From positions 1 through 57,924 of the forward strand of contig JAGCUV010000079.1 in NCBI GenBank assembly GCA_017962705.1: a DNA stretch of 57,924 bases, in the 5' to 3' direction. The position numbers and the translations under genes are program-made. Origin of the DNA: Bacteroidales bacterium. GTDB lineage: Bacteria > Bacteroidota > Bacteroidia > Bacteroidales > UBA932. Each line of letters opens with the position of its first letter. Position 1 is the first letter of the stretch. This document shows positions 30,815 to 52,746 of this stretch, piece by piece. The notes under the pieces were generated by a model. The model was not told where the DNA came from and ran no database searches. It worked only from the letters and a program-made list of their open reading frames with translations.

Positions 30815-30847
30815 TTTGTCTACAAACCGGCATAACCGATACCTTTG
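30815..30847 (+). promoter_or_regulatory. Promoter of the mannan PUL
   Basis: A -33 TTTG (30815-30818), 21 bp, then -7 TACCTTTG (30840-30847): a full match to the Bacteroidota consensus. It ends 16 bp before the first GH26 start. It is the only obvious promoter for the 14-gene run. Confidence 0.8.
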
Positions 30848-30863
30848 CAGAAAAATCAATTTC

Positions 30864-32057
30864 ATGAAAGCCGGAACAGTCATCCTCACCCTTGTTATCA
30901 CGATGCTATCTCTGGAAGCTTGTGATAAACAGCATTCTCAGACGGGTCCTACGCGGCCCCAAATCCGCCCGTTCCTAACGGACTCTTATGCCACCGCCCA
31001 GACAAAGGCCTTATGGGAAAATTTGGTGGATTTGCGTGACAAAGGAACGCTCTTTGGAGCCCAAATTCCCACAGAATACGGATTGACAGACGGAGTCCGC
31101 TGGGAAGATGACGGCAGCATGTCTCGATCCGACACCAAGGACCTTGTCGGTAGCCATCCCGCCGTCTGCGGCTGGGACATCTCCGGCATTGAGTTGGAGC
31201 ATGAAAAGAATATTGATGACGAGCCTTTCGTGACCATCCGTCAACACATTGTTGCCGCGCACAAACGGGGTGCAGTCAATACCATCTCCTGGCACTGCAC
31301 CAATCCCAAAACCATGGGAAATGCCTGGGATGCCACGCGCGCGGTATACCTTATTATTCCAGGCGGAGAAAGGCATGAGATGTTCAAACTCTGGCTCGAC
31401 CGGGTTGCCGCGTTTTTCAATTCCCTGAAAGATGAATCCGGAGAGCAGGTCCCCTTGATTTTCCGGCCCTGGCATGAACACACGGGGTCTGGTTTCTGGT
31501 GGGGAAAAGGCAATGCCTCCCGAGAGGAATTTGTCGCCCTTTGGCGTTTCACCATCGAATATCTCCGCGATACGAAAGGACTCCATCAACTCATTTGGGC
31601 CTACTCCCCTGATATGGTACACATTTCTTCGCGCGATAGTTATATGGAGTACTGGCCCGGCGACAACTATGTAGATATTCTCGGCCTGGATGCCTACGAC
31701 CGTGATGGACAAGACTATGGGCACAAGTGCCTTCAACTTTGTCGCTTGGGCAACGTCATCGCGGGAGAACGGGCTAAAATTTTTGCCCTGACAGAAACCG
31801 GACTGCAGAACAACGACCCTTCTTACTCAAAATACTACAACAAAAACTGGTGGACACGGATGCTATATAAGGTCATCAGCGGCGAGCGCATCAGTTTCGC
31901 CTTGGTATGGCGCAATGGAGGCCTGCCTCCCGCCGGAGAATATTTCAACGCGTTCAGAGGTTGTTATTCCGGAGAGGATTTTATCAAATTTGCCGCCTTG
32001 CCTGACGTCCTGTTGGAACGTGATCTTCCTGATATGTATCACTATGCGGCCCGCTAA
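30864..32057 (+). CDS. GH26 beta-mannanase lipoprotein (first)
   Basis: 397 residues from the start at 30864; the frame is open upstream across the promoter. Lipoprotein signal to Cys20 (LSLEAC). GH26 barrel: SHPAVCGWDISGIEL, ISWHC, FRPWHEHTGSGFWWGKG with acid/base Glu205, EYWPGDNYVDILGLDAYD, and LTETG with nucleophile Glu311. It cuts beta-1,4-mannan at the surface or in the periplasm. It is the most divergent of three GH26 domains in the operon (MHEMF.., TNPKTMGNAWD instead of ANPVTGGNSWD), suggesting a different cleavage pattern. The next gene starts 14 bp before its stop. Confidence 0.95.
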   Translation: MKAGTVILTLVITMLSLEACDKQHSQTGPTRPQIRPFLTDSYATAQTKALWENLVDLRDKGTLFGAQIPTEYGLTDGVRWEDDGSMSRSDTKDLVGSHPAVCGWDISGIELEHEKNIDDEPFVTIRQHIVAAHKRGAVNTISWHCTNPKTMGNAWDATRAVYLIIPGGERHEMFKLWLDRVAAFFNSLKDESGEQVPLIFRPWHEHTGSGFWWGKGNASREEFVALWRFTIEYLRDTKGLHQLIWAYSPDMVHISSRDSYMEYWPGDNYVDILGLDAYDRDGQDYGHKCLQLCRLGNVIAGERAKIFALTETGLQNNDPSYSKYYNKNWWTRMLYKVISGERISFALVWRNGGLPPAGEYFNAFRGCYSGEDFIKFAALPDVLLERDLPDMYHYAAR

Positions 32058-33348
32058 CATCATCCATTCTTTTTTACTGGCAGCAAGCGTCATCTCCTGT
32101 ACTCAGAACGAAATACAGGAGGTACGCCATTATATCTATCAATCTTGGGACGCAACAATCCGAAGCACTCCCCCTTACGATACGGCACACCTGCTCGCTC
32201 TGCCTAGGCCTTATACGGTACCTTGCATCGATGGTATGTTCGATGAATTGTATTACTGGGACACCTACTTCACCAATGAAGGACTGATTTTGGATGGGAA
32301 AACAGAGCTGGCCACCAGCAACACGGAAGACCTGCTAGCCTTGGCCAACCGTTTCGGATTTGTTCCCAATGGCAACCGGGACTGGTATCTCACTCGTTCG
32401 CAGCCACCCTATCTGGCCCTCATGGTTGATCAAATATGGTCCAGCAAGCAAGACACGGCTTTTTTGCAACGAGCCTTTCCCATTCTAGAACGAGAATATC
32501 ATTTTTGGATGCAGGAACGAATCACCCCCTGCGGGCTCAATCGCTACGGGGCCAACAGTCCTTCTCCTGATTTGATAGATGAGTTCATCACGACAGCCGG
32601 AAAGCGGCTTGGTAAAGATTTCCGATCAATGGGATGGAGTCAGGAGCGACTTGAAAAGTTGGCGATTGACTGTATCGCTGAATGCGAATCTGGCTGGGAT
32701 TTCAATCCCAGGTTCGACCGCCGTTGCTCAGACTTCTGCCCAGTAGACCTCAACGCCAATCTCTATGGCATGGAAAAGTTGATGGCACATTTTGCCTGTC
32801 TTACAAATAGGGACGCCACCCCCTGGATCGAGCGAGCGGAGAAACGCAGTGAATTAATGCACCAATTGCTTTTTGATCCCGTCCTAGACGGCTGGTATGA
32901 CTATGACTGGACGCAAGGAATGCGTTCACCCATTCTATCTGCTGCCGTATTTTCCCTGCTTTTCAACCGTGTGCTTACACAAGAAGAGGCTGGAAGCGTG
33001 CATAAAAGCCTAGCCCGTCTGGAATATCCATTTGGACTGTCCGTCTGTGAAGACCGGCCTTATGAATACAAGTATCAGTGGTCTTTTCCCAACGCCTGGC
33101 CCCCCACCACTTACATTGCCGTCCGTGGACTTGGGAACTACGGCTATCGTGAAGATGCAGTCCGCCTGGCCCGGAAATATTTGGACGCTACCATACGTCT
33201 CTTCCGGGAAAGCGGACAACTATGGGAAAAAACCAATGCACTTAACGGAGGCCTCCCGGACGAGAGTGAGTATGGGACTCCTGCCATGATGGGCTGGAGT
33301 GCCGGGACTTTCGTTTATATGAATGAATTTATTAAACAACAAATTTAA
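32044..33348 (+). CDS. GH37 trehalase-like glycoside hydrolase lipoprotein
   Basis: 434 residues from the ATG at 32044. Lipoprotein signal (ASVISC, Cys19). GH37 signatures: VPCIDGMFDELYYWDTYF (59-76, signature 1), AECESGWDFNPRF (212-224, with the expected catalytic Asp219), QWSFPNAWPP (345-354, signature 2) and EYGTPAMMGWSAGTF near the end. Signature 2 in true trehalases reads QWDxPxGWxP; Asp to Ser and Gly to Ala changes here point to another alpha- or beta-linked disaccharide or side-chain substrate. It is translated by coupling to GH26. Its place in a mannan PUL is unexplained. Confidence 0.78.
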   Translation: MRPANIIHSFLLAASVISCTQNEIQEVRHYIYQSWDATIRSTPPYDTAHLLALPRPYTVPCIDGMFDELYYWDTYFTNEGLILDGKTELATSNTEDLLALANRFGFVPNGNRDWYLTRSQPPYLALMVDQIWSSKQDTAFLQRAFPILEREYHFWMQERITPCGLNRYGANSPSPDLIDEFITTAGKRLGKDFRSMGWSQERLEKLAIDCIAECESGWDFNPRFDRRCSDFCPVDLNANLYGMEKLMAHFACLTNRDATPWIERAEKRSELMHQLLFDPVLDGWYDYDWTQGMRSPILSAAVFSLLFNRVLTQEEAGSVHKSLARLEYPFGLSVCEDRPYEYKYQWSFPNAWPPTTYIAVRGLGNYGYREDAVRLARKYLDATIRLFRESGQLWEKTNALNGGLPDESEYGTPAMMGWSAGTFVYMNEFIKQQI

Positions 33349-36300
33349 TGAACAGAATAATTCTAAGAGCGTTACTGCCGCTAATCCTGATGGCAAATGC
33401 ACAACTGTCCCTTCAGGGACAAACCCACTTAGCCAAGGGTACCGTTCTCGACACGGATGGTTCTCCTATGATTGGCGTCGCTGTATCGGTGGTCGGCACT
33501 GGAGTGGGTGACGTAACAGATATAGACGGACATTTTTCTGTAAAAGCCGCTCCGGGGGCTACTATCCGCTTTGAATTTCTCGGTTACGAAAATTCTGAAG
33601 TGAAATATAACGGAGCCGACACGGACCTGACCATCCAGATGAACCCTTCATTCGAAACATTGGCAGATGTGGTCGTAGTGGGATATGGCGCCGTCAAAAA
33701 AAGCGACTTGACCGGCTCGGTCGCGAGTGTCAAGATGGATGCCCTCGCAGACATCACCGCCCCCTCTGTGGATGGGCTGCTTCAGGGAAGGGCTGCCGGA
33801 CTTCAAGTGATCAACAGTTCGCAGGATCCGGGCGCGGGCTCAACCATACGAATTCGAGGAAATTCCTCCATCAACGGCTCCAACTCTCCATTGGTTGTCG
33901 TCAATGGATTTCCATTGGGCGATGCCGGAGCACTCACCCAAATCAACACGGCCGACATCGCGTCAATCGAAGTTCTTAAAGACGCATCGGCCTCGGCCAT
34001 CTATGGTTCCCGGGGTGCCAACGGTGTCATTCTTGTCACGACCAAGCAGGCAGACGAAGGACGCACGAATGTGATAGTTAAGCACCAGACCATCATCTCC
34101 CAACTTTCCGACCCGATAGACATCTGGTACGACCCTATGCTGATGGCCCAGGTGACCAATGAGGAAATGGTCAACGCCGGACTCAACCCTTTGTATATCG
34201 GACAAAGCATCGGCGGCATCTACTACCCGTCCCTGCAGGAAATCCAAAGCGGGGCATGGTCCAACACGGATTGGGCGAAACTCTGCCTGCGGACTCCGAT
34301 AACGAACTCCACGACCGTGTCACTCAACAGCGCCACGTCCCGCTCATCCCTGAACGCCAACCTCAACTATTACAATGACCAAGGTATCTACAAAAAAGAT
34401 GAGTATGGCCGTTTCAACGCCAATATCGGATACTCATACAAGATTCTGAAGAACCTGACCCTCTCCACCTATAATGTTTTCTCCATCTCAGACCGCAACG
34501 TAATGAATGGGTTGGAATATGGGCGCAATCCACTTTGGCCGGTCTATAATGAAGACGGCAGTTATTATTTAGCCGGCCCCACGGACTTCGGACACCCCCT
34601 TGTCCGCTTGCGGGACTTCAAAGACCATATCAAAGTGCGCGAGATTCTGGCCTCCGCCTCACTGGATTGGGAGATTATCAAGGGCTTGAAGTTGCACACC
34701 CAGTTTGATTACCGCTATAAGACTTCCGTCGAGGACCTGTATGAAGCACGGACCATCTCACAGGATGCCCACGACAACAATGGCATCGCCAAGATCAACA
34801 ACAGCGAATACAACGAATTGCTTTCTGAAACTTATTTGACCTGGAACCAGACCTTCGCCAAGATTCACAACATCTCGTTGATGGCCGGTCACTCCTACAC
34901 TTGGAATCTGAGCCGTGGACTTTACACCACCGCCCGCGGCTTCGTCAACGATATACTGGGCAACGAAAACATGAATGCGTCTGACCCCGCCCTGCGGCAG
35001 ATTTACAACGACGGATACGCCGAATCAAAACTGCTCTCCTTCTATGGGCGCGCCAATTATTCGTTAATGGATCGTTACCTGCTGACTTTCACGATGCGGG
35101 CTGACGGATCCACCAAGTTCGGAAAGAACAATAAATGGGGTTACTTCCCCTCAGGCGCCATCAGTTGGAAAATGCACAAGGAGGACTGGATGCGTGCCGC
35201 TCCATGGATCAGCGAATGGAAATGGCGTGTCAGTTATGGCATCTCGGGCAACCAGGGCATCAACCCTTACCAGACGCTGGACCGCTATGGTATGGAAAAA
35301 TTCTGGTACAACAACAATTGGACGACCGTAATCGGACCCGGATTTGAAGAAGGGCGGACAGGAGCCAACGATCGTTACTTCGTCTGGGGTGGCATTATGA
35401 ATCCTGACCTGAAATGGGAAACAACGGCACAGACTGACGCCGGTCTGGACTTAGCCTTCTTGGACAGCCGTCTTCGATTGACCGCCGACTTCTACTACAA
35501 GGAGACATATAACCTGCTCCGGGAGAAATATCTCCCCTTAAGTTCAAGTTACGACAAAATCTGGGTTAACGACGGCCGTGTGCTCAATACGGGATTTGAA
35601 CTCACCTTAGGTGGAGATATCATTTCAACGCGAGACTGGCATTTCAGTGCAGAACTCATCTGGTCTATGAACCGCAACAAGGTTATGAATCTGGGCGACG
35701 CCATCTCCAGCGGCCTTTCCCAAGATGAACTCAACGGATTCTATTACGAAGTCACCGGACCGGCCATCGCGATGTTCAACCAGAATGCCAGTATCCTGGC
35801 TGAAGGGAAGCCTATGAACATCTTCTATGGTTATCAAGTGAACGGCATCATCCAAGAGGATGAGAATCCGGGATTTATCGACCCTGCCGGATTGCTTGAC
35901 CGTCCCGGAGAACTCAAGTATGTTGATCAGGATGGAGACTATGCCATTACCTCCCGCGATCGCGTCATTATCGGCGACCCCAATCCCGATTTCACGGCCA
36001 GTCTGAACCTGCGCGTGTCGTGGAAGCAACTCAGTCTGTCTGTCTTTCTGTTCGGTGTCTACGGCAACGATGTGTTGTACAACGGATACACGTACAGCCC
36101 CCGCGTAAAAGCCAAACGCTGGACCCCCGATACGCCATCCAATCTTTTTCCCAGTTTGAACAGCATCCGACAAGATCATCTGTCCGATTATTTTATTCAA
36201 GATGGCTCTTTCCTGCGAATTCAGAACGTCAATTTGGCGTATGACTGGCAGATTGGAAAGAAATGGCTCAAGAGCATCCGATTCTTCGCAGCCATTGACA

Positions 36301-36419
36301 ATCTATACACTTTCACCCGTTTCGACGGATATGATCCTGAAGTTGGTTTGGACGGTATTTACTGGGGAGGATATCCCAAATTCCGCAAATATTCCTTTGG
36401 TATAGACATTCAATTCTAA
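33348..36419 (+). CDS. SusC/RagA-like TonB-dependent transporter of the mannan PUL
   Basis: 1023 residues. Signal peptide (~1-25), carboxypeptidase-D-like domain (AKGTVLDTDGSPMIGVAVSVVG, ~29-110), and the SusC linker VVVVGYGAVKKSDLTGSVASV. The plug has IRIRGNSSINGSNSPLVVVNGFP and SASAIYGSRGANGVILVTT. The barrel ends in a terminal F. It imports manno-oligosaccharides across the outer membrane with the SusD that follows 6 bp later. The ATG shares the last base of the previous TAA. No STN domain. Confidence 0.95.
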   Translation: MNRIILRALLPLILMANAQLSLQGQTHLAKGTVLDTDGSPMIGVAVSVVGTGVGDVTDIDGHFSVKAAPGATIRFEFLGYENSEVKYNGADTDLTIQMNPSFETLADVVVVGYGAVKKSDLTGSVASVKMDALADITAPSVDGLLQGRAAGLQVINSSQDPGAGSTIRIRGNSSINGSNSPLVVVNGFPLGDAGALTQINTADIASIEVLKDASASAIYGSRGANGVILVTTKQADEGRTNVIVKHQTIISQLSDPIDIWYDPMLMAQVTNEEMVNAGLNPLYIGQSIGGIYYPSLQEIQSGAWSNTDWAKLCLRTPITNSTTVSLNSATSRSSLNANLNYYNDQGIYKKDEYGRFNANIGYSYKILKNLTLSTYNVFSISDRNVMNGLEYGRNPLWPVYNEDGSYYLAGPTDFGHPLVRLRDFKDHIKVREILASASLDWEIIKGLKLHTQFDYRYKTSVEDLYEARTISQDAHDNNGIAKINNSEYNELLSETYLTWNQTFAKIHNISLMAGHSYTWNLSRGLYTTARGFVNDILGNENMNASDPALRQIYNDGYAESKLLSFYGRANYSLMDRYLLTFTMRADGSTKFGKNNKWGYFPSGAISWKMHKEDWMRAAPWISEWKWRVSYGISGNQGINPYQTLDRYGMEKFWYNNNWTTVIGPGFEEGRTGANDRYFVWGGIMNPDLKWETTAQTDAGLDLAFLDSRLRLTADFYYKETYNLLREKYLPLSSSYDKIWVNDGRVLNTGFELTLGGDIISTRDWHFSAELIWSMNRNKVMNLGDAISSGLSQDELNGFYYEVTGPAIAMFNQNASILAEGKPMNIFYGYQVNGIIQEDENPGFIDPAGLLDRPGELKYVDQDGDYAITSRDRVIIGDPNPDFTASLNLRVSWKQLSLSVFLFGVYGNDVLYNGYTYSPRVKAKRWTPDTPSNLFPSLNSIRQDHLSDYFIQDGSFLRIQNVNLAYDWQIGKKWLKSIRFFAAIDNLYTFTRFDGYDPEVGLDGIYWGGYPKFRKYSFGIDIQF

Positions 36420-36425
36420 GACACT

Positions 36426-37931
36426 ATGAAACAGCAAATATACCTTCTCTTGCTCACCGGCGTCCTCCTGAACGCCTGCTCCCTGGATGAAAAGCCTTAT
36501 GGATTCTATTCCGGAGATAACTTCTACCAGAGCGACGAGGACGCCGAATCGGGTCTGATGTATGCCTACAACGCTTTGAACTATCTTGAGTACCTGCGAG
36601 GTATCTGGTATGTGGGCGACATTCCGACGGACAATATGTACCCCAAATCCGACGAACCCGGAGACATTCATATGCTGGAAAATTGGACGGTAACTTCCAA
36701 TACGGAACTGACCCATTATTATTATAAATATTGCTATATCGGCATCAACCGGGCCAACGCGGTCATCAAGAAAATTTCAGGAGGAAATTTCACGCCGGCC
36801 GTTCGCAACCGGGTGGTGGGAGAAGCCCATTTTTTGCGGGCCTGGAATTACTTCAATCTGGTCCGCACATTCGGCATCTGTCCGATAACCACGGAACCCA
36901 TCTCTTCGCTTGAGCAAACGACGGCTCCTCTTGCCGGCAGCATCTTGCAAATTTACGAATTGATCATTAACGACTGTCTGAAAGCGGAGGAATTGCTACA
37001 AGTTAAGCGGGATTTTGGAAGAACGGACAAAGTTGCCGCCGAAGCACTACTGGCAAAGGTTTACTTACATCTGGCCTCATCCAAGCATTATCAGGCTCCC
37101 GGTTACAAAAATTTGCCTATCGATGCGGAGGAATATTACGCAAAAGCCGCGCTCTATGCCCGAAAAGTTGTCAACGACTATCCTGATGTATATGGATTTG
37201 ACAACAATCTCCGGCACATTTATGATGTCTATGCGCCCGATGGTCCGGAACATATTTTCATCATGGCGACGGACCGCAGCGGCACCCACGAAGGAATGTA
37301 TACCAAGATTCCTCTCCAGTTTCTGCCCAACAACAGCAGCGTCCCCATCTTCATCAAATATCCGGACGGCAGTCTGCAGCAAGGAAATGGCAACGGCTGG
37401 GGTGTGTTCCTGATCAACGATGATTTCGTGGAAGGTGCCTATCTGGCCACCGACAAGCGTCGTACAGAGTTGCTCCATCGCAGCATTTTCGACCAAAACG
37501 GCAACGAGATTCTTCCCTCCCCGGTACGTGGCTACTTCACATCCAAATATGTCGACCCTGATTTCATCGGGGAGCGGACCAGCGCACGGCCTTACCTGAT
37601 TCGCTGGTCTGACATCGCCCTGGTACTGGCGGAAGCGGCAGGACCGACGGAAGGATATCCCTTGGTTAATCGCATTCGCGGACGGGCCGGAATCGGCGAC
37701 CTGACTCCGGGTATGGACCTGGAAACCTTCCGAACCGCCGTCATCAACGAGAGGAAACTCGAACTGGCTTTTGAGGGCAACCGGCTTTTCGACTTGCGGC
37801 GGACGGCAAAAGTTACATCCACCGTACAGGAGGCATCCCGCTTGAGCGAGGAAGATGCCGCTTTTTATCCCATTCCCCAGCGGGAAGTAGACCTCAACCC
37901 GAACGTTCCGAATTCACAAAATAATTTCTAA
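36426..37931 (+). CDS. SusD/RagB-like lipoprotein of the mannan PUL
   Basis: 501 residues. Lipoprotein Cys18 (LLNACSLDEKPYGF). Typical SusD blocks: YIGINRANAVIKKISG, VGEAHFLRAWNYFNLVRTFG, AAEALLAKVYLHLA, YLIRWSDIALVLAEAA and NERKLELAFEGNRLFDLRRT. Surface capture of mannan oligosaccharides in complex with SusC. The next gene starts 2 bp after its stop. Confidence 0.95.
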   Translation: MKQQIYLLLLTGVLLNACSLDEKPYGFYSGDNFYQSDEDAESGLMYAYNALNYLEYLRGIWYVGDIPTDNMYPKSDEPGDIHMLENWTVTSNTELTHYYYKYCYIGINRANAVIKKISGGNFTPAVRNRVVGEAHFLRAWNYFNLVRTFGICPITTEPISSLEQTTAPLAGSILQIYELIINDCLKAEELLQVKRDFGRTDKVAAEALLAKVYLHLASSKHYQAPGYKNLPIDAEEYYAKAALYARKVVNDYPDVYGFDNNLRHIYDVYAPDGPEHIFIMATDRSGTHEGMYTKIPLQFLPNNSSVPIFIKYPDGSLQQGNGNGWGVFLINDDFVEGAYLATDKRRTELLHRSIFDQNGNEILPSPVRGYFTSKYVDPDFIGERTSARPYLIRWSDIALVLAEAAGPTEGYPLVNRIRGRAGIGDLTPGMDLETFRTAVINERKLELAFEGNRLFDLRRTAKVTSTVQEASRLSEEDAAFYPIPQREVDLNPNVPNSQNNF

Positions 37932-42049: not shown

Positions 42050-44659
42050 GTGAAAAAGTTATTGATCCCTTTACTGATCCTGCAGGCAGTCTTAACAGGC
42101 TGCCTGCAAGACAGTCTGCCCCAAGGCGCGTCCCAGCAGGGAGAACCGATGGAAAAAATGACCATCTTCGCCTCGCTCGCCTCGGAAAGCCTTCTTCCGT
42201 CTGAAGAAGACGGAGATGAGGCCTCCACGCGGGTGAGTATTTCCGATGAAGGCAGTTCCCGATGGCAGGATGGCGACCAGATTGCCCTCCATCAGGCAAA
42301 CGGGTTTTACGCCTTCCAATTGAGCGATGCTTCGACAGGTTCCTTCACGGGGCCGAAGGGAAGCTATGACGGCCTGGCCGTCAGTCCCTGGGAAATTTCG
42401 CCAAGGATGGATGGCAACAGGCTTCTGTTCACCTTTCCCGGTAATTATAGCTATTCGCCGGGAAAGAGTTATGTACCCATGATTGCTTGGGGAGAATCAT
42501 CGTTCTATCGGTTCTATCCGTGTTCCGGCCTGGTGAAATTCTCTATTTCCTCCGTTCCCGCTACGACACGGGCGATGCGTTTTGCCACGTCCCACAAAAT
42601 CCAAGGGGAAATGATGCTGGGCACACCCGTACCAGGAACCAGCGCAGTTCAGCAAAGTCATCCCGCCAACGACTGCGAGAAGGAAGTTATCATTTCCATT
42701 TCGGGCGGATCCGTATCGACCGATATGGATTTTTACATTCCTTTGCCCGTCACTGCCGGTGAACAAACGTATGAGAGCATGTCCCTCTCTTTCCTGGACG
42801 GTGAGGGCCGTTTACTCTCCTCTATGGTCTCGTCACATCCACGGAGCGTTGCGCGCAAGCAGATGCTCCGTTTCAAAACCATGCCGGCCAGTATGCCCGA
42901 AAAAATCTACTTGTTGGGCGGTTGTTTCGAGACGGCGTGGAGTTTTGACAATAGGCTGACCTTGCAGCGAGGAGCAGATGGGAAATATCGGGGCTACGGG
43001 ATTGACTTCATCAACACCCAGGGATTCAAACTCTATCTGTCAGACCAATATATGGCGGAATGGTTCGGTGCCGATGCGTCAGGTCAGCTGATCAACGGAC
43101 CTGCGCTCAAGCGTAACCAGAATGCCTCTGCCGACACGCAGATAACCCCTCCTTTCATCGGAGCCGCAGATTTGACGGTTGATTTTGCGAACAACACCCT
43201 CACCATCGCCCCCCACTCCGACATCGTCTATCCCACTGCATTATCCATCCTGGGGGATGCCGTAGGAGGATGGGACGCCAGCAAGCGCGTCCGCTTTGCC
43301 CACCAAGGGAACGGCATTTACCGAGCGGCAGGCATCAATATGGATTTCGGCTCCTCCGGAGAACTGGGATTCAAAGTCTTTCCACTGGATAATGACAGTT
43401 GGTATCCGCAATATGCACAAGAAACGGACGGAGGCATCGAACCCAATGTCGATTTCGGGAAAGTGCATTACGTGGAAAGCAGTGGCGGAGATGAATCTTT
43501 GTTCTACCCCGGACGTCACGGATATGCTTCCGGGACCTATACGGTCACCCTGGACGTCGTCGCCATGCGACTTACGCTGAGTACAGGAGAAGGTGGTGAT
43601 GAAGGACATGTCGACGGAGCCACCCTTTTGGCGAACTTGGCCTCGTTGCGGAGCCGGGGAACGATGTTTGGCATGCAGATTCCGACCGAATATGGCTTGT
43701 ACGAGGGGGTCAAATGGTGGGACGACGGCACAATCAGCCGCTCAGACGTCAAGACCCTCTGCGGGAGTCATCCGGCCGTCTGTGGCTGGGACATTTCAGG
43801 CATCGAACTGGACAACTACGTCAACATTGACGGAGAAAACTTCAACACAATCCGCACCCACATCCAAGCCGCTTTCGGGCGCGGAGCCGTCAACACCATT
43901 TCCTGGCATTGTGCCAACCCGGTGACCGGCGGCAACTCCTGGGACAACACACCCGCAGCATACGCGGTTATCCCCGGGGGCTACCTTCACGAGAAATTCA
44001 AGGGCTGGCTGGATCGGGTCGCCGCATTTCTCAAGAGTCTGACAACATCCTCGGGAGAACAGATTCCTCTGATATTCAGACCCTGGCACGAGCACACCGG
44101 AAATGGATTCTGGTGGGGAAAGGGCAGCGCATCCCAGCAGGATTATATCGCTCTCTGGCAGTTTACAATATCTTATCTCAAAGAAACCAAGGGAGTGCAA
44201 AACCTGCTGACAGCCTATTCACCCGACGCCATCCATTTTATCTGGGACAGCAGTTGGAACTACCGGAACATTTACCTTGAGTACTGGCCCGGTGACAGTT
44301 TTGTAGATATTCTCGGCCTGGATGCTTATGATGGGGATGGACGAAAGTTTTCTGAAGTCGTTCCCACCCTTTGCTCTACCATTGCCGCCATCGCTGCCGA
44401 AAAAGGGAAAATCGCGGCGCTGACAGAAACAGGCTTGGAAAACAACAGCTGGAATGCCACTTGGTGGACACAAAAACTATATCCAGCCATTCACGGGAAA
44501 GGGCTTTCCTATGCGCTTGTCTGGAGAAATGGGGAAATTCCGCCGCGAGGCCATTATTTCGGTCCTTGGAAAGGTTGTGTTTCTGAAAATGATTTTGTTA
44601 CATTTGCAAATAACGACGACATCCTGTTTGAGCGGGATCTTCCGTCAATGTACAGATAA
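42050..44659 (+). CDS. Fimbrillin-like, SusE/F-like and GH26 mannanase fusion, surface lipoprotein
   Basis: 869 residues, starting at GTG (42050); no ATG fits before the signal peptide. Lipoprotein Cys18 (AVLTGC). Domains: fimbrillin-like (~35-275), SusE/F-like module 1 (283-388, IYLLGGCFETAWSF), module 2 (~395-510) and GH26 (~523-869). GH26 motifs are intact: RPWHEHTGNGFWWGKG with acid/base Glu681, and LTETG with nucleophile Glu793. The GH26 part is very close to the protein at 45847-46989. It would be a surface endo-mannanase carrying its own binding modules. Typical Bacteroidota surface GH26 enzymes are much smaller, so this layout is unusual. Confidence 0.88.
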   Translation: MKKLLIPLLILQAVLTGCLQDSLPQGASQQGEPMEKMTIFASLASESLLPSEEDGDEASTRVSISDEGSSRWQDGDQIALHQANGFYAFQLSDASTGSFTGPKGSYDGLAVSPWEISPRMDGNRLLFTFPGNYSYSPGKSYVPMIAWGESSFYRFYPCSGLVKFSISSVPATTRAMRFATSHKIQGEMMLGTPVPGTSAVQQSHPANDCEKEVIISISGGSVSTDMDFYIPLPVTAGEQTYESMSLSFLDGEGRLLSSMVSSHPRSVARKQMLRFKTMPASMPEKIYLLGGCFETAWSFDNRLTLQRGADGKYRGYGIDFINTQGFKLYLSDQYMAEWFGADASGQLINGPALKRNQNASADTQITPPFIGAADLTVDFANNTLTIAPHSDIVYPTALSILGDAVGGWDASKRVRFAHQGNGIYRAAGINMDFGSSGELGFKVFPLDNDSWYPQYAQETDGGIEPNVDFGKVHYVESSGGDESLFYPGRHGYASGTYTVTLDVVAMRLTLSTGEGGDEGHVDGATLLANLASLRSRGTMFGMQIPTEYGLYEGVKWWDDGTISRSDVKTLCGSHPAVCGWDISGIELDNYVNIDGENFNTIRTHIQAAFGRGAVNTISWHCANPVTGGNSWDNTPAAYAVIPGGYLHEKFKGWLDRVAAFLKSLTTSSGEQIPLIFRPWHEHTGNGFWWGKGSASQQDYIALWQFTISYLKETKGVQNLLTAYSPDAIHFIWDSSWNYRNIYLEYWPGDSFVDILGLDAYDGDGRKFSEVVPTLCSTIAAIAAEKGKIAALTETGLENNSWNATWWTQKLYPAIHGKGLSYALVWRNGEIPPRGHYFGPWKGCVSENDFVTFANNDDILFERDLPSMYR

Positions 44660-45850
44660 ATGATGGATTTGTTCAATAAAAGACTGCTCAGGCTACAAGA
44701 AGAGCACAAACAATTGATTGAAAAAGCCAATAGTCCGCTTTTGGGGAATGGCATTTTCGAGCGTTATCGCAACCCCGTTCTGACAGCGGCACATGCCCCC
44801 CTCACCTGGCGATATGATTTTTCGGCAGAACGCAATCCGTTTCTTATGGAACGATTTGGCATCCACGCGGTCATGAACGCCGGCGCCATCCTATGGAAGG
44901 GGCGACACTTGCTTGTCGCACGGGTCGAAGCGGCTGACAGAAAATCATTTTTTGCCGTGGCAGAAAGCCCCAACGGTGTGGATAATTTCCGCTTTTGGGA
45001 ACGTCCCATTGTGATGCCGGAGTACGGCGAACCTGCCACCAATCTGTATGATATGCGTCTGACAGCCCATGAAGACGGATGGATATACGGTATATTCTGT
45101 GTAGAACGAAAAGATCCCAACGCCCCTGAAGGGGACCTTTCGTCCGCCATCGCATGCGCCGGTGTGGCCCGTACCCAGGATTTTGTCCATTGGGAACGGC
45201 TCCCGGATATCCAAGCAGAGTGCCAGCAGCGCAATGTTGTCCTCCATCCCGAATTCGTAAATGGCCAGTATGCGCTCTATACCCGTCCTCAAGATGGATT
45301 TATTGATACCGGAAAGGGAGGAGGCATCGGATGGGCCTTGACGAAAAGCATGGAAAACACCGTGATTCGTAACGAGCGCATTATCAACCCCCGATACTAC
45401 CACACCATACGGGAACTCAAAAACGGAGAAGGCCCTGCACCCATCAAAACATCCTGTGGCTGGCTCCATCTGGCCCACGGCGTCCGGGGCTGTGCTTCCG
45501 GACTTCGTTATGTCCTCTACTTATATATGACCTCACTGGAAGACCCGACTCGCATCATCGCCGAGCCTGCTGGATTTCTGATGGCCCCCGAAGGAGAGGA
45601 AGAAGTGGGAGATGTGATGAATGTATTGTTCAGCAATGGATGGACTGTAGAAGAGAACGGAAGAGTGCTCCTCTATTACGCATCCTGCGACACACGCCTG
45701 CATGTAGCCGAGAGTTCCGTGGAGCGGCTGGTGGATTATTGTTTGCATACATCTCCGGACGGGCTACGGACCGGCCGCACCGTCGAAACACTCAACACAT
45801 TGATTGATCTGAATCAAGCGACCCTCTTTCACCAAAAATCATCTCAATGA
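44660..45850 (+). CDS. GH130 mannosylglucose phosphorylase-like enzyme
   Basis: 396 residues without a signal peptide, so cytoplasmic. Five-bladed propeller with GH130_1 features: FGIHAVMNAGAILWKGRHLLVARVEAADRKSFFAVAES, EYGEPATNLYDMRLTAHEDGWIYGIFCVERKD (with the catalytic Asp in YDMRL), and DTGKGGGIGWALTKSM, then HGVRGC and YYASCDTRLHVAES. It should phosphorolyse 4-O-beta-mannosyl-glucose to mannose-1-phosphate and glucose. The required epimerase is the C-terminal half of the regulator at 47001-49067. The ATG directly follows the previous TAA, and the next gene overlaps by 4 bp. Confidence 0.92.
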   Translation: MMDLFNKRLLRLQEEHKQLIEKANSPLLGNGIFERYRNPVLTAAHAPLTWRYDFSAERNPFLMERFGIHAVMNAGAILWKGRHLLVARVEAADRKSFFAVAESPNGVDNFRFWERPIVMPEYGEPATNLYDMRLTAHEDGWIYGIFCVERKDPNAPEGDLSSAIACAGVARTQDFVHWERLPDIQAECQQRNVVLHPEFVNGQYALYTRPQDGFIDTGKGGGIGWALTKSMENTVIRNERIINPRYYHTIRELKNGEGPAPIKTSCGWLHLAHGVRGCASGLRYVLYLYMTSLEDPTRIIAEPAGFLMAPEGEEEVGDVMNVLFSNGWTVEENGRVLLYYASCDTRLHVAESSVERLVDYCLHTSPDGLRTGRTVETLNTLIDLNQATLFHQKSSQ

Positions 45851-46989
45851 AAATTCGTGTGCTTTTTCTACTGTTGGGCGGTCTGCTGCTGAGCGGATGT
45901 ACCGACACCGTCAATACGGAAGATACTTCCATTTTGTTGCAGAAAATGGACTCCCTTCGCCTTCGCGGGACCATGATGGGTATGCAAATCCCCACCGAAT
46001 ATGGCCTGTCGGGTGGACAACGTTGGGAGGATGATGGCAGCATCCGCCATTCTGACATTGAGATTCTGACCGGCAGTCATCCCGCCGTCTGTGGCTGGGA
46101 TATCTCCGAGATTGAATTAGACCATCCCCGCAACATCGACGGAGAAGAATGGAATGTGATCCGACGCCACATCCGGGCCGCCTACGAACGCGGCGCCCTC
46201 AACACCCTTTCATGGCATTGTGCCAATCCGGTGACCGGCGGCAATTCTTGGGATAACACACCAGCCGCCCACACCCTCATTCCCGGCGGGGAACATCACG
46301 GTTTGTTCTGTCTTTGGCTGGATAAAGTGGCGGCCTTCCTTCAAAGTCTGACTACTCCTTCCGGGAAACTCATTCCCCTGATTTTCCGTCCCTGGCACGA
46401 GCATACAGGCAATGGTTTCTGGTGGGGCAAAGGCAGCGCGACAAGGGAAGAGTACGTCGCGCTCTATCGGTTTACCTTCGACTATCTACGCCAAGAAAAA
46501 GGACTCACCAATCTGTTGAGCGCCTATTCTCCCGATGCCATCCATTTCATCTGGGATCCGGAGGAGCGCCACCGCGATATCTATCTGGAATACTGGCCCG
46601 GTGACGAATACGTGGACATTGTCGGGTTGGACGCCTACGACGCCCCGGGAAGACGTTTCGACGAAGTCGTGCCCAGCCTCACATCCATGATTTCTGAAAT
46701 TGCCAAAGAGAAGAAAAAAATAGCCGCATTAACGGAAGTGGGATTGGAGAACAACAGTCCCGAGCATTCCCCGTACTTTCGCAAGAACTGGTGGACGGAA
46801 CAACTCTACCCTGTCATCCAAGGACGCGGACTCTCCTTTGTACTATGCTGGCGCAACGGAGGGTTGCCACCGTCCAGCCATTACTTCGGACCCTGGAAAG
46901 GCTGCTATAGCGAAACTGACTTTATCCTTTTTGCTTCCCAAGCCGACATTTTGCTTGAAAGAGATCTGCCCACTTTGTATTTTCAATAA
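45847..46989 (+). CDS. GH26 beta-mannanase lipoprotein (third)
   Basis: 380 residues. Lipoprotein Cys18 (LLLSGC). Catalytic motifs RPWHEHTGNGFWWGKG with acid/base Glu185 and LTEVG with nucleophile Glu297; EYWPGDEYVDIVGLDAYD lines the site. It is nearly a stand-alone copy of the GH26 domain of the fusion protein (long shared blocks such as ANPVTGGNSWDNTPAA), suggesting recent duplication. Likely acts on imported or surface manno-oligosaccharides, possibly releasing mannobiose for the epimerase/GH130 route. Starts in ATGA overlap with GH130. Confidence 0.95.
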   Translation: MKIRVLFLLLGGLLLSGCTDTVNTEDTSILLQKMDSLRLRGTMMGMQIPTEYGLSGGQRWEDDGSIRHSDIEILTGSHPAVCGWDISEIELDHPRNIDGEEWNVIRRHIRAAYERGALNTLSWHCANPVTGGNSWDNTPAAHTLIPGGEHHGLFCLWLDKVAAFLQSLTTPSGKLIPLIFRPWHEHTGNGFWWGKGSATREEYVALYRFTFDYLRQEKGLTNLLSAYSPDAIHFIWDPEERHRDIYLEYWPGDEYVDIVGLDAYDAPGRRFDEVVPSLTSMISEIAKEKKKIAALTEVGLENNSPEHSPYFRKNWWTEQLYPVIQGRGLSFVLCWRNGGLPPSSHYFGPWKGCYSETDFILFASQADILLERDLPTLYFQ

Positions 46990-47000
46990 CCTACTTACGA

Positions 47001-49067
47001 ATGACCAACAAGCCTATCGCCGAGATTACTCCCCTGTCTGACAAAGATTGTATCTATATTGCAGACCGGCACAAGTCTGAATTTACTTTTCCGCTCCATA
47101 CGCATCTGGAGTTGGAATTGAATTATTTGGAAAATGCCGACGGCGCTGTCCGGGTCGTCGGGGACCGACGAGAAATCATCGGTAAGGAAGATTTGGTCCT
47201 TATTAGCGGAGAGAATATTGAACACGCCTGGGAACAAGGAACCTGTGATACGGGAGACATCCGGGAAATAACCATCCAGTTTTCACGTTCCATCTTCTCG
47301 GAAGAGTTGATGTCGCGAGCCCCCTTCATTTCCATCCGTGACCTGTTCTACCGAGCCCAGAAAGGCTTGACATTTTCAACATCCGACATCGGTAAAATAC
47401 GTGGCCTTCTGAATGAACTTTCCGATACAAAAGATGATTTTTTCCGCTATCTAAAATTTCTTCATATTCTGTATCTGCTCAGTCTGTCCACAGAAGCCAG
47501 GGAACTCTCCAGTTTCGCTTCTTCCGAGATCAATTCAGAAAGCCGAAGAGTCACTAAGATTAAACAATATGTCCGCGATCACTTCGCCGAGGAACTGAGC
47601 CTGCCGCTGCTGGCGAACATGGTCAATATGACACCGTCTTCTTTCAGCCGTTTTTTCCAACACCGCGCCGGAAGATCTTTGGCAGATTACATCGCTGATG
47701 TCCGTATCGGACACGCTGCCGAAATGCTTTCCGGAACTTCGCTATTTGTCTCGGAAATTTGCTTTCAATGCGGCTACAACAACATTTCCAACTTCAATCG
47801 CATTTTTAAATCCAGAAAAGGGATGACGCCAAGCGAATACCGCAGCCTTGTACAGATAAAGCCCAAACAAGACAAGGTAAAAAGCAGCAGCGATAATTTT
47901 TTGCATGAAGTCCAAGAAACCTTGAATAATAACATCCTGAACTGGTGGTTGGGCCTGAAGGATGCCCGGGGAGGCTTCATTTCTGAAGCCGACTTTTGGG
48001 GAAATCCCATCTCGGAAGCGACACGGGGAGTCATTCTGAACGCCCGCATCATCTGGAGTTTTTCGGCAGCATATCGCCATCTGGGGAAAAAAGAGTACCT
48101 ACTGGCTGCCCGGCACACCGGAGAATGGTTCCTGCGTCATTTCTGCGACCATCGCTATGGAGGCGTTTATTGGAGCGTCAATGCAAATGGACAAGCACTG
48201 AATCGGAAAAAGCAACTTTACGCCCAGGCTTTCGCCATCTACGGAATGAGTGAACTTTACCGGGCCAGCAATGATCAGGAAGCCCTCAATACAGCCATAC
48301 AACTATTCCGGACCGTGGAGCACTATTTTGCCGATCCTGTGTATGGAGGATATTCGGAGGCCCTTGACAGAGAATTCTCTCCGCTGGAAGATATGTCGTT
48401 GAGTACACATGACATTAACGCAGAAAAGACGATGAACTCCCATCTTCACTTATTGGAAGCCTATACCAATCTGTACCGTGTCTGGCCGGATGCCGCCCTG
48501 AAAGAGTCCTTGTCTTCTCTGCTGGATTTGGTTTGCATGCGTATGGTGGGAAGCAATGGGCATCTGCTCCTATACTTTACCCGCGACTGGCAGGTTTTAC
48601 CCGGGCCCATCTCTTATGGGCACGACATCGAGACCTCATGGCTGGCTTTGGAATCTGCGATGGCGCTCAAAGATTTTGAACGGTTTGAGCAGATTAGATG
48701 CACGGCGGAACGGCTGGCACGTTCTGGAAACGAAGGCTATCTGGAAGACGGTTCATATCGCTATGAAAGGCTATCCAAGGATGGAAGTTTCAGTTATGAT
48801 GACACGCGCCAATGGTGGGTACAGGCAGAAGCCATCGTGGGAAACTTGTGGCTGTGGAAATACCACGGAGACCCCAAAGGTCTGGAAAGAGCCTTCTCTT
48901 GCTGGAAATATGTCAAGACACATTTCCTCGATTATGAGCACGGAGAATGGTATTATAACATTCTGCCGGACGGACATCCCGACCCGTCTCTCCCCAAAGC
49001 GGGATTTTGGAAATGCCCTTACCACAACACCAGGATGTGCCTGGAGGCATTGAAAATCTTTGATTGA
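47001..49067 (+). CDS. AraC-family regulator fused to a cellobiose/mannobiose 2-epimerase (AGE family)
   Basis: 688 residues, one uninterrupted frame, no signal peptide. Residues ~1-110 are a cupin-like sensor (FTFPLHTHLELELNYL). Residues ~183-283 are the double HTH of AraC regulators (LPLLANMVNMTPSSFSRFFQHRAG; ICFQCGYNNISNFNRIFKSRKGMTPSEYR). A charged linker (286-298) leads into a full-length epimerase (~300-688). It keeps the family's key residues: RGVILNARIIW (Arg349), MNSHLHLLEAYT (His481/483), SYGHDIETSWL (His541), QWWVQAEA and WKCPYHNTRM (His675). The epimerase should convert mannobiose to mannosylglucose for the GH130 enzyme. Genes 5' and 3' belong to the same pathway. No other regulator or epimerase is present in the PUL. 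Confidence 0.9.
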   Translation: MTNKPIAEITPLSDKDCIYIADRHKSEFTFPLHTHLELELNYLENADGAVRVVGDRREIIGKEDLVLISGENIEHAWEQGTCDTGDIREITIQFSRSIFSEELMSRAPFISIRDLFYRAQKGLTFSTSDIGKIRGLLNELSDTKDDFFRYLKFLHILYLLSLSTEARELSSFASSEINSESRRVTKIKQYVRDHFAEELSLPLLANMVNMTPSSFSRFFQHRAGRSLADYIADVRIGHAAEMLSGTSLFVSEICFQCGYNNISNFNRIFKSRKGMTPSEYRSLVQIKPKQDKVKSSSDNFLHEVQETLNNNILNWWLGLKDARGGFISEADFWGNPISEATRGVILNARIIWSFSAAYRHLGKKEYLLAARHTGEWFLRHFCDHRYGGVYWSVNANGQALNRKKQLYAQAFAIYGMSELYRASNDQEALNTAIQLFRTVEHYFADPVYGGYSEALDREFSPLEDMSLSTHDINAEKTMNSHLHLLEAYTNLYRVWPDAALKESLSSLLDLVCMRMVGSNGHLLLYFTRDWQVLPGPISYGHDIETSWLALESAMALKDFERFEQIRCTAERLARSGNEGYLEDGSYRYERLSKDGSFSYDDTRQWWVQAEAIVGNLWLWKYHGDPKGLERAFSCWKYVKTHFLDYEHGEWYYNILPDGHPDPSLPKAGFWKCPYHNTRMCLEALKIFD

Positions 49068-49086: not shown

Positions 49087-50478
49087 ATGGCTAAATTGAC
49101 AGAAAAAATAGGATATGGACTCGGTGATATGGCATCATCGATGTTCTGGAAGATATTTTCCTATTACCTTCCTATCTTCTATTCCGATGTTTTCGGGCTC
49201 AAACCCGTACACGCCGCCACCCTCCTGCTGGTCACCAAACTTTATGACGCCGTATCCGATCCTTTTATGGGCATCATCGCAGATCGCACGCAGACCCGAT
49301 GGGGAAAATACCGCCCTTATCTTCTATGGATGGCTCTTCCGTTTGCCGTCATCGGCATTTTTTCTTTCTATGTTCCGGATGGTTCATACGAATTCAAGCA
49401 TTTGTATGCCTATGTGATGTATATTCTGATGATGACGGTTTATACGGCCGTAAATGTGCCTTACGGAGCGATGTTGGGTGTAGTAACGGACAATTCGCGC
49501 GAGCGAAGCGTATTTTCTTCTTTCAGAATGTTCTTCGCTTATGCCGGAAGTTTTCTCGCTATGGGAATCTTTTGGTTGTTCGAAAAATCCATCTTTGGAG
49601 CGACGAATTCCGCAGGAAAAATGATTCGAAGTGTGGGAGATGCCGACGCAGCACAATGGACCGGTGTTATCGCTCTTGTCGCTCTGCTGTGCGCCCTATT
49701 TTTTATCGGTTGCTTCTTGCTCACACGGGAAAATGTAAAAGTGGAACAGGGTCTCCAGAGTGGGTGGACATCCATCCGGAAGGATCTAAAAGCGCTCGCT
49801 TCCAACGGTCCCTGGTGGCTTTTACTCGGTGCCGCTATCAGTCAGTTGTTGTGTCTTTCCATTCGAGGTGGAGCTGCGGCCTATTATTTTGCAAACGTTC
49901 TCGATATTCATCCGCTACTGACATGCGCCGTCTTTCTGACCCTTGGCGAAATCGGACAGATGGCAGGCGTCGTGTTCGCTGTACCCGTTTCCGAGAAATT
50001 GGGCAAAAAGCAAAGTTTCATGTTTATGCTGGCCATCGCCGCCGTCTTAAGTTGTGTCTTGTGGTTTTTGCCGACGCAAGTTAAAGGAATTTGGATGCTG
50101 ATGGCCTTACAATTAGTAATCAGCCTAAGCTTTGGTGTGGCGGCCCCTTTGGTATGGAGTATGTTTGCAGATGTGGCCGACTACTCCGAACTTCGGCACG
50201 GAAGCAGTTCTACAGGTCTGATTTTTTCATCATCTTCCATGGCCCAGAAATTTGGCGGAGCTATTGGAGGTTTTCTGCTACTGAGTATTTTGGGTATCTT
50301 CGGTTATGACCGGGAACTTGCCATCCAGGCTCCCGAGACAATCAATGCCATCAAAGCATTAATGAGTTTCATCCCAGCCGCCAGCGCTATCCTCGGCATT
50401 GTTTTTCTTGCCTTTTATCCGCTCAACATACAACGTATGACAGAAATCCAGCAACAGCTGAAAAGACAGCGCGGATAA
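49087..50478 (+). CDS. GPH-family (MelB-like) sugar:cation symporter
   Basis: 463 residues with about 12 membrane segments. The GPH start LTEKIGYGLGDMASSMFWKIFSYYLPIFYSDVFGL and loop DAVSDPFMGIIADRTQTRWGKYRPYLLW are typical. It should import mannobiose or other short oligosaccharides from the periplasm across the inner membrane. Its place between the epimerase and the alpha-galactosidase fits a mannan pathway whose last steps are cytoplasmic. 19 bp after the regulator gene. Confidence 0.92.
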   Translation: MAKLTEKIGYGLGDMASSMFWKIFSYYLPIFYSDVFGLKPVHAATLLLVTKLYDAVSDPFMGIIADRTQTRWGKYRPYLLWMALPFAVIGIFSFYVPDGSYEFKHLYAYVMYILMMTVYTAVNVPYGAMLGVVTDNSRERSVFSSFRMFFAYAGSFLAMGIFWLFEKSIFGATNSAGKMIRSVGDADAAQWTGVIALVALLCALFFIGCFLLTRENVKVEQGLQSGWTSIRKDLKALASNGPWWLLLGAAISQLLCLSIRGGAAAYYFANVLDIHPLLTCAVFLTLGEIGQMAGVVFAVPVSEKLGKKQSFMFMLAIAAVLSCVLWFLPTQVKGIWMLMALQLVISLSFGVAAPLVWSMFADVADYSELRHGSSSTGLIFSSSSMAQKFGGAIGGFLLLSILGIFGYDRELAIQAPETINAIKALMSFIPAASAILGIVFLAFYPLNIQRMTEIQQQLKRQRG

Positions 50479-50502: not shown

Positions 50503-52746
50503 ATGAATCCATTCTACAAAAGCACCTATCGGACGTTTGCCACCCTGCTTATCATCGTTGTCGCCCTTTTCTCCGGAAGCCGGGACGCCTCCTCCCAGAC
50601 CATCTTGAATACCAAGAGTACATCACTCTTGCTACAAGTCGAAAAAGGCAGTCGTCCTCAATTTGTCTATTATGGCGCCCGTCTGTTTGAGACGGATCTG
50701 CCCGCTGCGCTGGCAAATGCCGGAAAATGCTTTGACGCATATCCCGCTCGCCTGTCCAATACGGCCCATCCCGATGCCTTGAGCGTAATGATGCCGGATG
50801 GCGGTGTAACGACGGACCTGCAAACCGAGAGCGTACAAGAGGGAACCTGGGATGGCGGACATACGCTGGATATCGTGTGCAAGGATCCGCTCTATCCTTT
50901 CTTTCGGGTTACGCTCCATTATCGCAGTTACACCGAAGAAGACATCATTGAGATGTGGACGGATATCTTCAATTCCGGGAATAACAACATTATGTTGCAC
51001 CGCTATGATTCTGCCTTTCTTCCTATCCCGGAAGGAAATGTCTGGATGTCGTCCCTGCAAGGTGGATGGGCTGATGAATGTCACGTATACGAAGAGCCGT
51101 TGACTCGGGGAACACGGGAAATCAGCGAACACAACGGGGTACGCAACAGCGCCACCGCCCATAGCGAAGTCATGTTTTCCTTGGATGGCAAACCGCAAGA
51201 AAACGAGGGGCGGGTTATCGGCGCAGTCCTTTGCTACGGAGGTAATTTCGAAATGAGGATTATCACCCGCTATGACGGATATCACCGTTTCTTTGCCGGC
51301 ATCAGCCCCCGCGATGCCTGGTACACACTATCCAAGAGGGAAGTTTTCACCACTCCGAAAGTGGCATTTACCTATAGTGAAAATGGACTGGGAGGTGCCA
51401 GCCGGCACTTTCATCGATGGGCTCGAAAATATATGCTCTGCCACGGCGGACAGCCGGGTGACATCCTGCTCAACAGTTGGGAAGGTGTCTATATGAACAT
51501 CCAAGAAGATCAAATGGAACAGATGGCACGTGACATCGCCGACCTTGGTGGAGAGCTTTTCGTCATCGATGACGGATGGTTCGGCAGCACGAAATACCCA
51601 CGAGACCACGATAGGCAGGGATTGGGAGATTGGGAGGTGCTTTCCCAGAAGCTTCCCAATGGTTTGCAAAATATGGCGCAAAGATGCCGTCAGGCCGGTG
51701 TCAAATTCGGCATCTGGATTGAACCGGAAATGGTCAATACCCAGAGCGAATTGTATGAGAAACATCCTGATTGGGTGTTGAACGCTCATGGGCGGGAACT
51801 GGCCGCTGGACGCGGAGGGACGCAGATGATGCTGGATTTATGCAATCCTGCCGTTCAAGACTATGTCGTATCCGTTGTAGATAAGATTCTTCGGCAAGCG
51901 CCGGACATCGCCTATATCAAATGGGATTGCAACAACTACATGCGCTCTCCCGGTTCTCCCTACCTGAAAAACCCCAATCATCTCGCCATTGAGTATATGC
52001 GCGGACTCACCCAAGTGCTGAATCGCATTCGCGCTGCCTACCCAGATGTTGCCATGCAGTTATGCGCCGGGGGTGGGGCCCGTGTCAACTGGGGATTGTT
52101 GCCCTGGTTCGATGAGTTCTGGACTTCCGACAACACAGATGCGCTCCAGCGACTTCGCATTCAATGGGGAACCTCTTTTTTCTTTCCTGCGGAAGCAATG
52201 GCCTGCCATGTCAGCGCGTCGCCCAATCACCAGACAGGGCGGATTATCCCCCTCAAATATCGCATAGATGTGGCTATGACAGGACGTATGGGCTTTGAAT
52301 TACAACCCGCCGATATCAGTCAAGAAGAACGTGACATCTGCCGTCAGGCTGTTTCAGACTACAAAACGATTCGTCAGACCGTCCAATGCGGAGACCTCTA
52401 TCGACTGGTATCTCCGTTTGACAAGAAAGGAATAGCCTCTTTGATGTACTGCAGCGAAGACAAGAAACAGGCCGCATTTTTCTGGTATCGTACCGAGTAT
52501 TACCGGGGCGATCACCCGGCGCAGGTCCCTCTGCGAGGACTCAATCCCGACCTCTTGTATAAAGTGACGGAACTCAACAAAGTCGATGGAAACCCAGTAT
52601 CGGCTCTGGACGGCAAAATCGTGTCGGGGCAATTCTTGATGAGCAACGGCTTTCTCTTTCCTGAAAAGGAGAGTTACCAGGGTGGTCATAACGACTGGCA
52701 CAGCCACGTTATTCGTTTGGATGCCATAATCAGTCTGAAAAAATAG
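50503..52746 (+). CDS. GH36 alpha-galactosidase, secreted
   Basis: 747 residues, usual length. The signal peptide (~1-30) ends GSRDASSQ without a lipobox, so it is probably periplasmic. GH36 motifs: LNSWEGVYMNI, FVIDDGWFG, KFGIWIEPEMV, YIKWDCNNY with nucleophile Asp475, LCAGGGARVNWGLL, and FWTSDNTDALQR with acid/base Asp543. It removes alpha-1,6-galactose from galactomannan oligosaccharides before their import. Last gene of the mannan operon; it ends in TAG. No clear terminator is visible before the convergent icd gene 15 bp away. Confidence 0.95.
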   Translation: MNPFYKSTYRTFATLLIIVVALFSGSRDASSQTILNTKSTSLLLQVEKGSRPQFVYYGARLFETDLPAALANAGKCFDAYPARLSNTAHPDALSVMMPDGGVTTDLQTESVQEGTWDGGHTLDIVCKDPLYPFFRVTLHYRSYTEEDIIEMWTDIFNSGNNNIMLHRYDSAFLPIPEGNVWMSSLQGGWADECHVYEEPLTRGTREISEHNGVRNSATAHSEVMFSLDGKPQENEGRVIGAVLCYGGNFEMRIITRYDGYHRFFAGISPRDAWYTLSKREVFTTPKVAFTYSENGLGGASRHFHRWARKYMLCHGGQPGDILLNSWEGVYMNIQEDQMEQMARDIADLGGELFVIDDGWFGSTKYPRDHDRQGLGDWEVLSQKLPNGLQNMAQRCRQAGVKFGIWIEPEMVNTQSELYEKHPDWVLNAHGRELAAGRGGTQMMLDLCNPAVQDYVVSVVDKILRQAPDIAYIKWDCNNYMRSPGSPYLKNPNHLAIEYMRGLTQVLNRIRAAYPDVAMQLCAGGGARVNWGLLPWFDEFWTSDNTDALQRLRIQWGTSFFFPAEAMACHVSASPNHQTGRIIPLKYRIDVAMTGRMGFELQPADISQEERDICRQAVSDYKTIRQTVQCGDLYRLVSPFDKKGIASLMYCSEDKKQAAFFWYRTEYYRGDHPAQVPLRGLNPDLLYKVTELNKVDGNPVSALDGKIVSGQFLMSNGFLFPEKESYQGGHNDWHSHVIRLDAIISLKK

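Follow-up and report, generated by a model that had tools for sequence, protein, structure and literature searches.

PutA, BirA and NadR combine a DNA-binding domain and a metabolic enzyme in one chain, and in these proteins the enzyme part is linked to DNA binding. To our knowledge, fusions between a DNA-binding regulator and a catabolic enzyme are uncommon. In the part of PMC6385246 on which we draw, B. fragilis and B. ovatus are described as processing GH26-made mannobiose through the joint action of an epimerase and a GH130_1 phosphorylase. Similarly, the portion of PMC9860051 considered here describes a beta-mannan locus of Muricauda which contains an AraC-type factor (FG28_RS02325), an epimerase and also an HTCS regulator.

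Here, we analyse a 57,924-nucleotide stretch of Bacteroidales DNA (hereafter, the window), which comes from a single draft genome (79.6% complete, 146 contigs). The initial annotation had assigned an AraC regulator and an AGE-family epimerase to one reading frame, and the 688-residue frame with Pfam matches in both halves bears this out. The gene is organized as follows.

47001 to 49067, plus strand: AraC-AGE fusion gene, 688 amino acids, ATG start, single open frame with 0 internal stops
47001 to 47549, plus strand: N-terminal sensor domain (residues 1-183) with a cupin-like HxHxxxE...H pattern
47610 to 47843, plus strand: AraC double helix-turn-helix, HTH_18 at residues 204-281 (Pfam E 1.1e-21)
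47856 to 47894, plus strand: fusion linker (residues 286-298), approximately where separate AraC relatives stop and separate epimerases start
47877 to 47879, plus strand: lost start codon GTA (V293), at the position of the epimerase ATG in separate relatives (alignment with the relatives' N-termini)
47895 to 49064, plus strand: AGE-family domain of the cellobiose/mannobiose 2-epimerase type (residues 299-688; Pfam and structure alignment)

A chance open reading frame was considered for 47001-49067 and rejected because two complete domains are contained in 688 open codons. At the gene level, enzyme and DNA-binding domain thus share one chain, read as one open frame. In PutA, BirA and NadR, which belong to other families, the link between enzyme and DNA binding is established, whereas the likeness here is one of one-chain gene architecture only. 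FG28_RS02325 can be compared by type and locus only, as an AraC protein in an epimerase-bearing mannan locus; in the part of the description used here it is a protein of its own and an HTCS regulator is also present in the locus, whereas the AraC protein of the window is fused. The explanation that we favour, and consider probable, is a lineage-specific in-frame fusion of adjacent, overlapping genes for an AraC activator and a disaccharide 2-epimerase, with both functions kept.

The DNA-binding region of the AraC half is clear. HTH_18 matches residues 204-281 with 77.3 bits (cut-off 33.6) and HTH_AraC matches residues 250-281 (E 9.3e-12). Nineteen aligned AraC proteins, the AraC half of the fusion included, form one family, and a profile built from them matches the AraC, RamA and SoxS structures over the helix-turn-helix half. 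The cupin sensor of the initial annotation stands in part: H33, H35, E39, G48 and H75 are invariant across the 19 rows and also in a 12-row alignment, but residues 1-191 are without a Pfam match, even with the threshold relaxed to E 10. This invariant His/Glu/Gly pattern would fit a metal-type cupin motif. The possibility of another close AraC paralogue in this assembly was rejected, as the remaining 12 same-genome matches to the fusion cover the helix-turn-helix region only, with at most 34% identity. Likewise, PF07221 matches only once in the 79.6% complete assembly. The claim that no other epimerase or regulator is present therefore holds within that assembly.

The epimerase half is complete as well. 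GlcNAc_2-epim covers residues 325-666 (E 3.9e-41, 141.9 bits against a cut-off of 23.4) and positions 1-336 of the 347 in the profile. Over residues 303-685, a sequence search gives the cellobiose 2-epimerases 9l8i (317.4 bits) and 3wkf (316.8 bits) as the closest solved structures. The presumed catalytic residues of 3wkf, R66, H200, H259 and H390, align with R349, H483, H541 and H675 of the fusion, and E262, W322 and W385, which we take to be further functional residues of 3wkf, align with E544, W606 and W670. Arg349, His541 and His675 of the initial annotation are confirmed, and its ambiguous 'His481/483' becomes His483, since H200 of 3wkf aligns there and not with His481. The fusion thus shares with the 2-epimerase 3wkf a full-length domain and its catalytic residues, and differs from it by the N-terminal AraC regulator and the lack of its own ATG. 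The NCBIfam equivalog for the cellobiose 2-epimerase EpiA scores 287.8 bits, far under its cut-off of 800. Judged from these matches, the AGE half is a relative of the EpiA family outside that equivalog, and its exact substrate is not fixed by family models because the EpiA match lies well under the cut-off.

The genomic surroundings are those of a beta-mannan utilization locus.

30864 to 32057, plus strand: GH26, first locus gene; ATG 30864 is probably the true start
31915 to 33348, plus strand: trehalase/MGH1-like glycoside hydrolase, second locus gene (ORF list)
33348 to 37931, plus strand: SusC and SusD homologues (Pfam)
42050 to 44659, plus strand: SusE-like N-terminal part and GH26 domain in one protein (Pfam)
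44660 to 45850, plus strand: GH130 of the mannosylglucose phosphorylase type (3was match, 618.5 bits)
45847 to 46989, plus strand: GH26 (Pfam); its stop lies 11 nt before the fusion gene
49087 to 50478, plus strand: GPH-family sugar symporter (family-model match)
50503 to 52746, plus strand: GH36, alpha-galactosidase-like (Pfam)

SusE-like proteins are also found among the locus genes, between SusD and the GH26 protein at 42050 in the gene order. From its listed start, the trehalase/MGH1-like frame (31915-33348) shares 143 nt with the GH26 frame before it. The GH130 at 44660 is a near relative of the solved 4-O-beta-D-mannosyl-D-glucose phosphorylase 3was, presumably the enzyme from B. fragilis. 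The GH26 enzymes, SusC/D, the GH130_1-type phosphorylase, the GPH symporter and the GH36 agree with the mannan pathway proposed initially, and the GH26, GH130_1-type and symporter neighbours are shared with AGE 2-epimerases of such pathways. Furthermore, the GH130 type matches the epimerase and GH130_1 pathway as presented in the part of PMC6385246 used here. Given the 11 nt gap, the fusion gene and the preceding GH26 gene probably belong to one operon. Just upstream of the mannan locus, 29334-30642 (plus strand) holds a gene for a DUF3990 protein followed by one for an HTH_3 protein; at a guess, this is perhaps a toxin-antitoxin-like pair.

The closest relative found, G415, carries the same locus with two separate genes (locus L038 on JAGCXP010000035.1, yak rumen MAG RGIG10215, 81% complete). 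It belongs to the same genus and its locus order matches that of the window, with identities of 89% for SusC, 86% for SusD, 81% for GH130, 79% for GH26 and 79% for the symporter. Its AraC and AGE proteins are 77% and 68% identical to the respective halves of the fusion. Their genes lie in different frames and overlap by 17 nt: the AGE ATG is at L038 position 10869 and the AraC stop TGA ends at 10885. Between the conserved end of AraC and the conserved start of the epimerase, the linker of the window shows a net gain of 2 nt relative to G415; later gaps in the DNA alignment cancel, which confines the frame difference to the linker. We regard the overlapping pair of G415 as the likely state preceding the fusion. 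The precursor genes were probably translationally coupled; small indels in a linker free of constraint then probably joined them.

The same comparison raises the alternative of an assembly or sequencing error, in which the true genome would resemble G415, with two overlapping genes that are joined only artificially by a missing linker base. The two genes of the nearest relative and the origin of the window in a single draft genome speak for it, as does a stop at 47894 in the +2 frame of the window, near the position of the G415 stop. However, a broken frame leaves the epimerase without its ATG. Where separate epimerases have their ATG, the aligned codon of the fusion is GTA; from M275, which lies within the helix-turn-helix, to the enzyme core the AGE frame contains no ATG, and TTG 47901 is the closest other start. 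Met is found within about 10 residues of this point in the separate epimerases inspected (59 of the 99 collected), and the linker differs by more than one indel. We consider an error of this kind unlikely, and a real fusion is favoured, though not proven, because a single-base assembly error leaves the enzyme without a normal start. As a counterpoint, two genes would result if a one-base linker error were combined with initiation at TTG 47901, an unusual start codon.

The internal start codons are also relevant to a further alternative, which is compatible with a real fusion, as the alternatives weighed here are not all mutually exclusive. One frame could yield two products, the full-length fusion and a free epimerase initiated internally at M275 (ATG 47823) or TTG 47901. 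Both codons are present in frame, but ATG 47823 falls within the conserved second helix-turn-helix, and the codon at which the separate relatives start has been lost; we rate a second product as quite improbable. The full-length fusion protein is predicted to be about 78 kDa.

How far the fusion extends among relatives was examined in several overlapping samples of Bacteroidota with different E cut-offs. Matches to the 688-residue query were obtained in 117 of 299 genomes at the family level (E 1e-20), 171 of 400 at the genus level (E 1e-100 or better), 55 of 295 at the order level (E 1e-60) and 25 of 335 at the class level (E 1e-50). Among the matches listed for the family, genus, order and class samples, the window's protein is the only one to span residues 1-688. 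In the phylum sample, 148 of 395 genomes match PF07221. No AraC match occurs in eight of the eleven other PF07221 frames of at least 593 aa among the phylum matches listed (all but those of G695, G690 and G749), and no AraC domain in eight of the twelve other AGE frames of at least 654 aa among the family and genus matches listed (all but those of G099, G088, G063 and G028). When the AraC half was compared with 166 genus genomes of at least 90% completeness, a set outside which G415 lies, one of the 166, the window's own, passed 1e-105. At the DNA level, 47500-48300 was compared with 101 relatives and, besides the window's own, no match crosses the linker. A scan of IMG/VR found no relative. 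An AraC-epimerase fusion was not found in literature titles and abstract openings, a coverage from which subscription journals are mostly absent.

AGE domains are joined to other partners in several Bacteroidota genomes.

L142, 1215 to 3596, minus strand: AGE-GH26 fusion
L140, 920 to 3454, minus strand: AGE-CE2/GDSL esterase fusion
L141, 3032 to 6898, minus strand: GH9-AGE fusion
L099, 1798 to 5283, plus strand: AGE-GH3 fusion

In all four, as in the fusion of the window, AGE is joined to a likely glycan-breakdown partner; however, their partners are hydrolases or an esterase, whereas that of the fusion is a transcription factor. With the AGE half of the fusion, the AGE domains of L140-L142 share only about 30% identity. 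AGE domains thus occur in several fusions, and a regulator partner is seen only in the window among the frames searched, which adds a regulator to the AGE partners found here (GH26, CE2, GH9 and GH3). The AraC-AGE fusion looks real and is new as an architecture within what was searched; it is not a new kind of system. In addition, frames of about 1000 aa in L100 (3270-6320, plus strand), L111 (3531-6587, plus), L112 (1128-4196, minus) and L116 (3110-6112, plus) have an N-terminal AGE domain followed by about 600 residues without a clear Pfam family; a GH30 match is barely above the cut-off in L116 and under it in L112. In L098 (1756-4014, plus), an open stretch of about 367 residues, counted from stop to stop and with no Pfam match, precedes the AGE domain.

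A regulatory role of the AraC half within its own locus is suggested by gene linkage. Among the matches listed, 60 family genomes have a match to each half, AraC and AGE; the two lie on different contigs in 20 of these genomes, which are uninformative. In 36 of the 40 same-contig genomes, again among the matches listed, AraC and AGE are within 35 kb: 15 pairs are divergent within 2 kb, 21 are between 2 and 35 kb apart, and the other 4 are further. The AraC gene is upstream on the same strand in 20 of the 21 pairs at 2-35 kb. This linkage supports a common function, which makes it probable that the AraC half regulates the locus in which it is encoded. An AraC gene directly before a same-strand epimerase is found in none of the 40 same-contig family genomes, and among the loci checked from the family and genus searches (L009-L037, L071-L095) only in G415; in the genus search (E 1e-100), weaker-scoring AraC relatives beside epimerases in genomes beyond these loci would not show.

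The region upstream of the first GH26 gene contains the candidate regulatory elements.

30795 to 30812, plus strand: AAGGATTTGACAATAAAG, candidate operator, largely kept in G415, just upstream of the promoter
30815 to 30847, plus strand: TTTG-N21-TACCTTTG, Bacteroidota-type promoter; the G415 counterpart is TTTG-N21-TATCTTTG

We take TTTG-N21-TACCTTTG to be a Bacteroidota promoter pattern; as a promoter candidate it is based on two genomes. The block 30791-30875 is conserved with G415 (72% over 88 columns). The initial proposal that the protein switches its own operon thereby gains indirect support, from the conservation of the promoter region in G415 together with the AraC-AGE linkage. No operator motif with fewer than three mismatches occurs in the stretches compared from G272, G034 and G212, whose AraC proteins are more distant (about 51-56% identical to the AraC half of the fusion). 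The best matches there have three mismatches, a level also reached 15 times elsewhere in the window. The candidate operator at 30795-30812 remains a guess because the motif is not recovered in these three genomes. At the promoter, 30795-30824 (plus strand) contains two similar blocks, AAGGATTTGACAATA and AAGTATTTGTCTACA, 15 nt apart, which are a possible candidate for a direct-repeat binding site. No Rfam family reaches its gathering score over the window.

Under the favoured reading of a fusion with both functions kept, the protein would be made as one chain. The AraC half would bind the conserved promoter region at about 30795-30847, be switched through its own N-terminal domain by a ligand derived from mannan, and activate the mannan locus. 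The epimerase half would work as in its relatives, presumably turning Man-Man into Man-Glc for the GH130_1-type phosphorylase. Since the gene apparently lies inside the operon which it would activate, regulator and enzyme would stand at 1:1 and rise together on induction. Without any new biology, the fusion would thus provide a 1:1 stoichiometry, an autoregulated amount and an enzyme carried to the promoter by the bound regulator. The tethering to the nucleoid suggested in the initial annotation would follow trivially if the AraC half binds DNA.

A more elaborate suggestion was that of a trigger enzyme, in which the epimerase active site or mannobiose turnover controls DNA binding by AraC, for example by consuming the inducer beside the sensor. 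Two predicted activities on one chain, intact active-site residues and the idea that the presumed inducer may be the substrate of the enzyme are consistent with it. However, the AraC half retains its own sensor domain with the invariant columns of its relatives, those relatives are not fused to any enzyme, and the enzyme half shows a single conservative change over 66 highly conserved columns. Because the 18 other aligned AraC proteins are complete without an epimerase, there is no need for sensing by the enzyme half, which would have to be a novelty of this lineage. Such control appears very doubtful to us, and an active-site sensing role is possible but unsupported. It is also conceivable, though unlikely, that the fused epimerase converts the mannobiose which its AraC domain senses, such that catalysis would reset or damp the operon. 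If true, this self-consuming sensor would be a new built-in feedback in a polysaccharide utilization locus, of which a related species keeps the pre-fusion state.

Lastly, one half could be a passenger, the chain working as an epimerase only or a regulator only while the other half decays. In a tree of the best 45 of 112 collected AGE rows, the window and G415 are sisters (100/99) and their branches are indeed long: 0.55 and 0.47, roughly fourfold the median of 0.12 for end branches. However, the unfused gene of G415 shares the long branch, so the fusion need not be the cause of the faster change of AGE. Both halves retain their conserved residues, no stops are present and the assembly yielded no other epimerase. 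Decay of the enzyme half was rejected: the fusion keeps 65 of the 66 AGE columns that are at least 97% conserved across 95 relatives, the exception being Val for Ile at 638. A passenger half is accordingly judged quite improbable.

Between the window and G415, pN is 0.141 for AraC and 0.206 for AGE, while pS is 0.77 in both and saturated; these values give no split of constraint before and after the fusion, and its age is not datable from them. In both halves, the two genomes are about equally distant from the outgroup. Both halves are, as far as substitution patterns tell, constrained. In the AraC tree (19 rows), the window and G415 are nearest neighbours without a well-supported joining fork, and their AraC halves do not look fast, unlike their AGE halves (47895-49064 and L071).

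With G415, the likely pre-fusion state is still found within the genus: locus and order are as in the window, but the two functions lie in two genes with a 17 nt overlap. This natural before/after pair allows testing whether joining a regulator to a pathway enzyme alters induction, noise or feedback. The reversed order was seen in L045, L047, L054 and L055 (about 9.9-12.3 kb) from rumen-type Bacteroidales/Bacteroidaceae MAGs, where the epimerase comes first and an AraC relative second on one strand, either no more than about 130 nt apart or as overlapping open frames.
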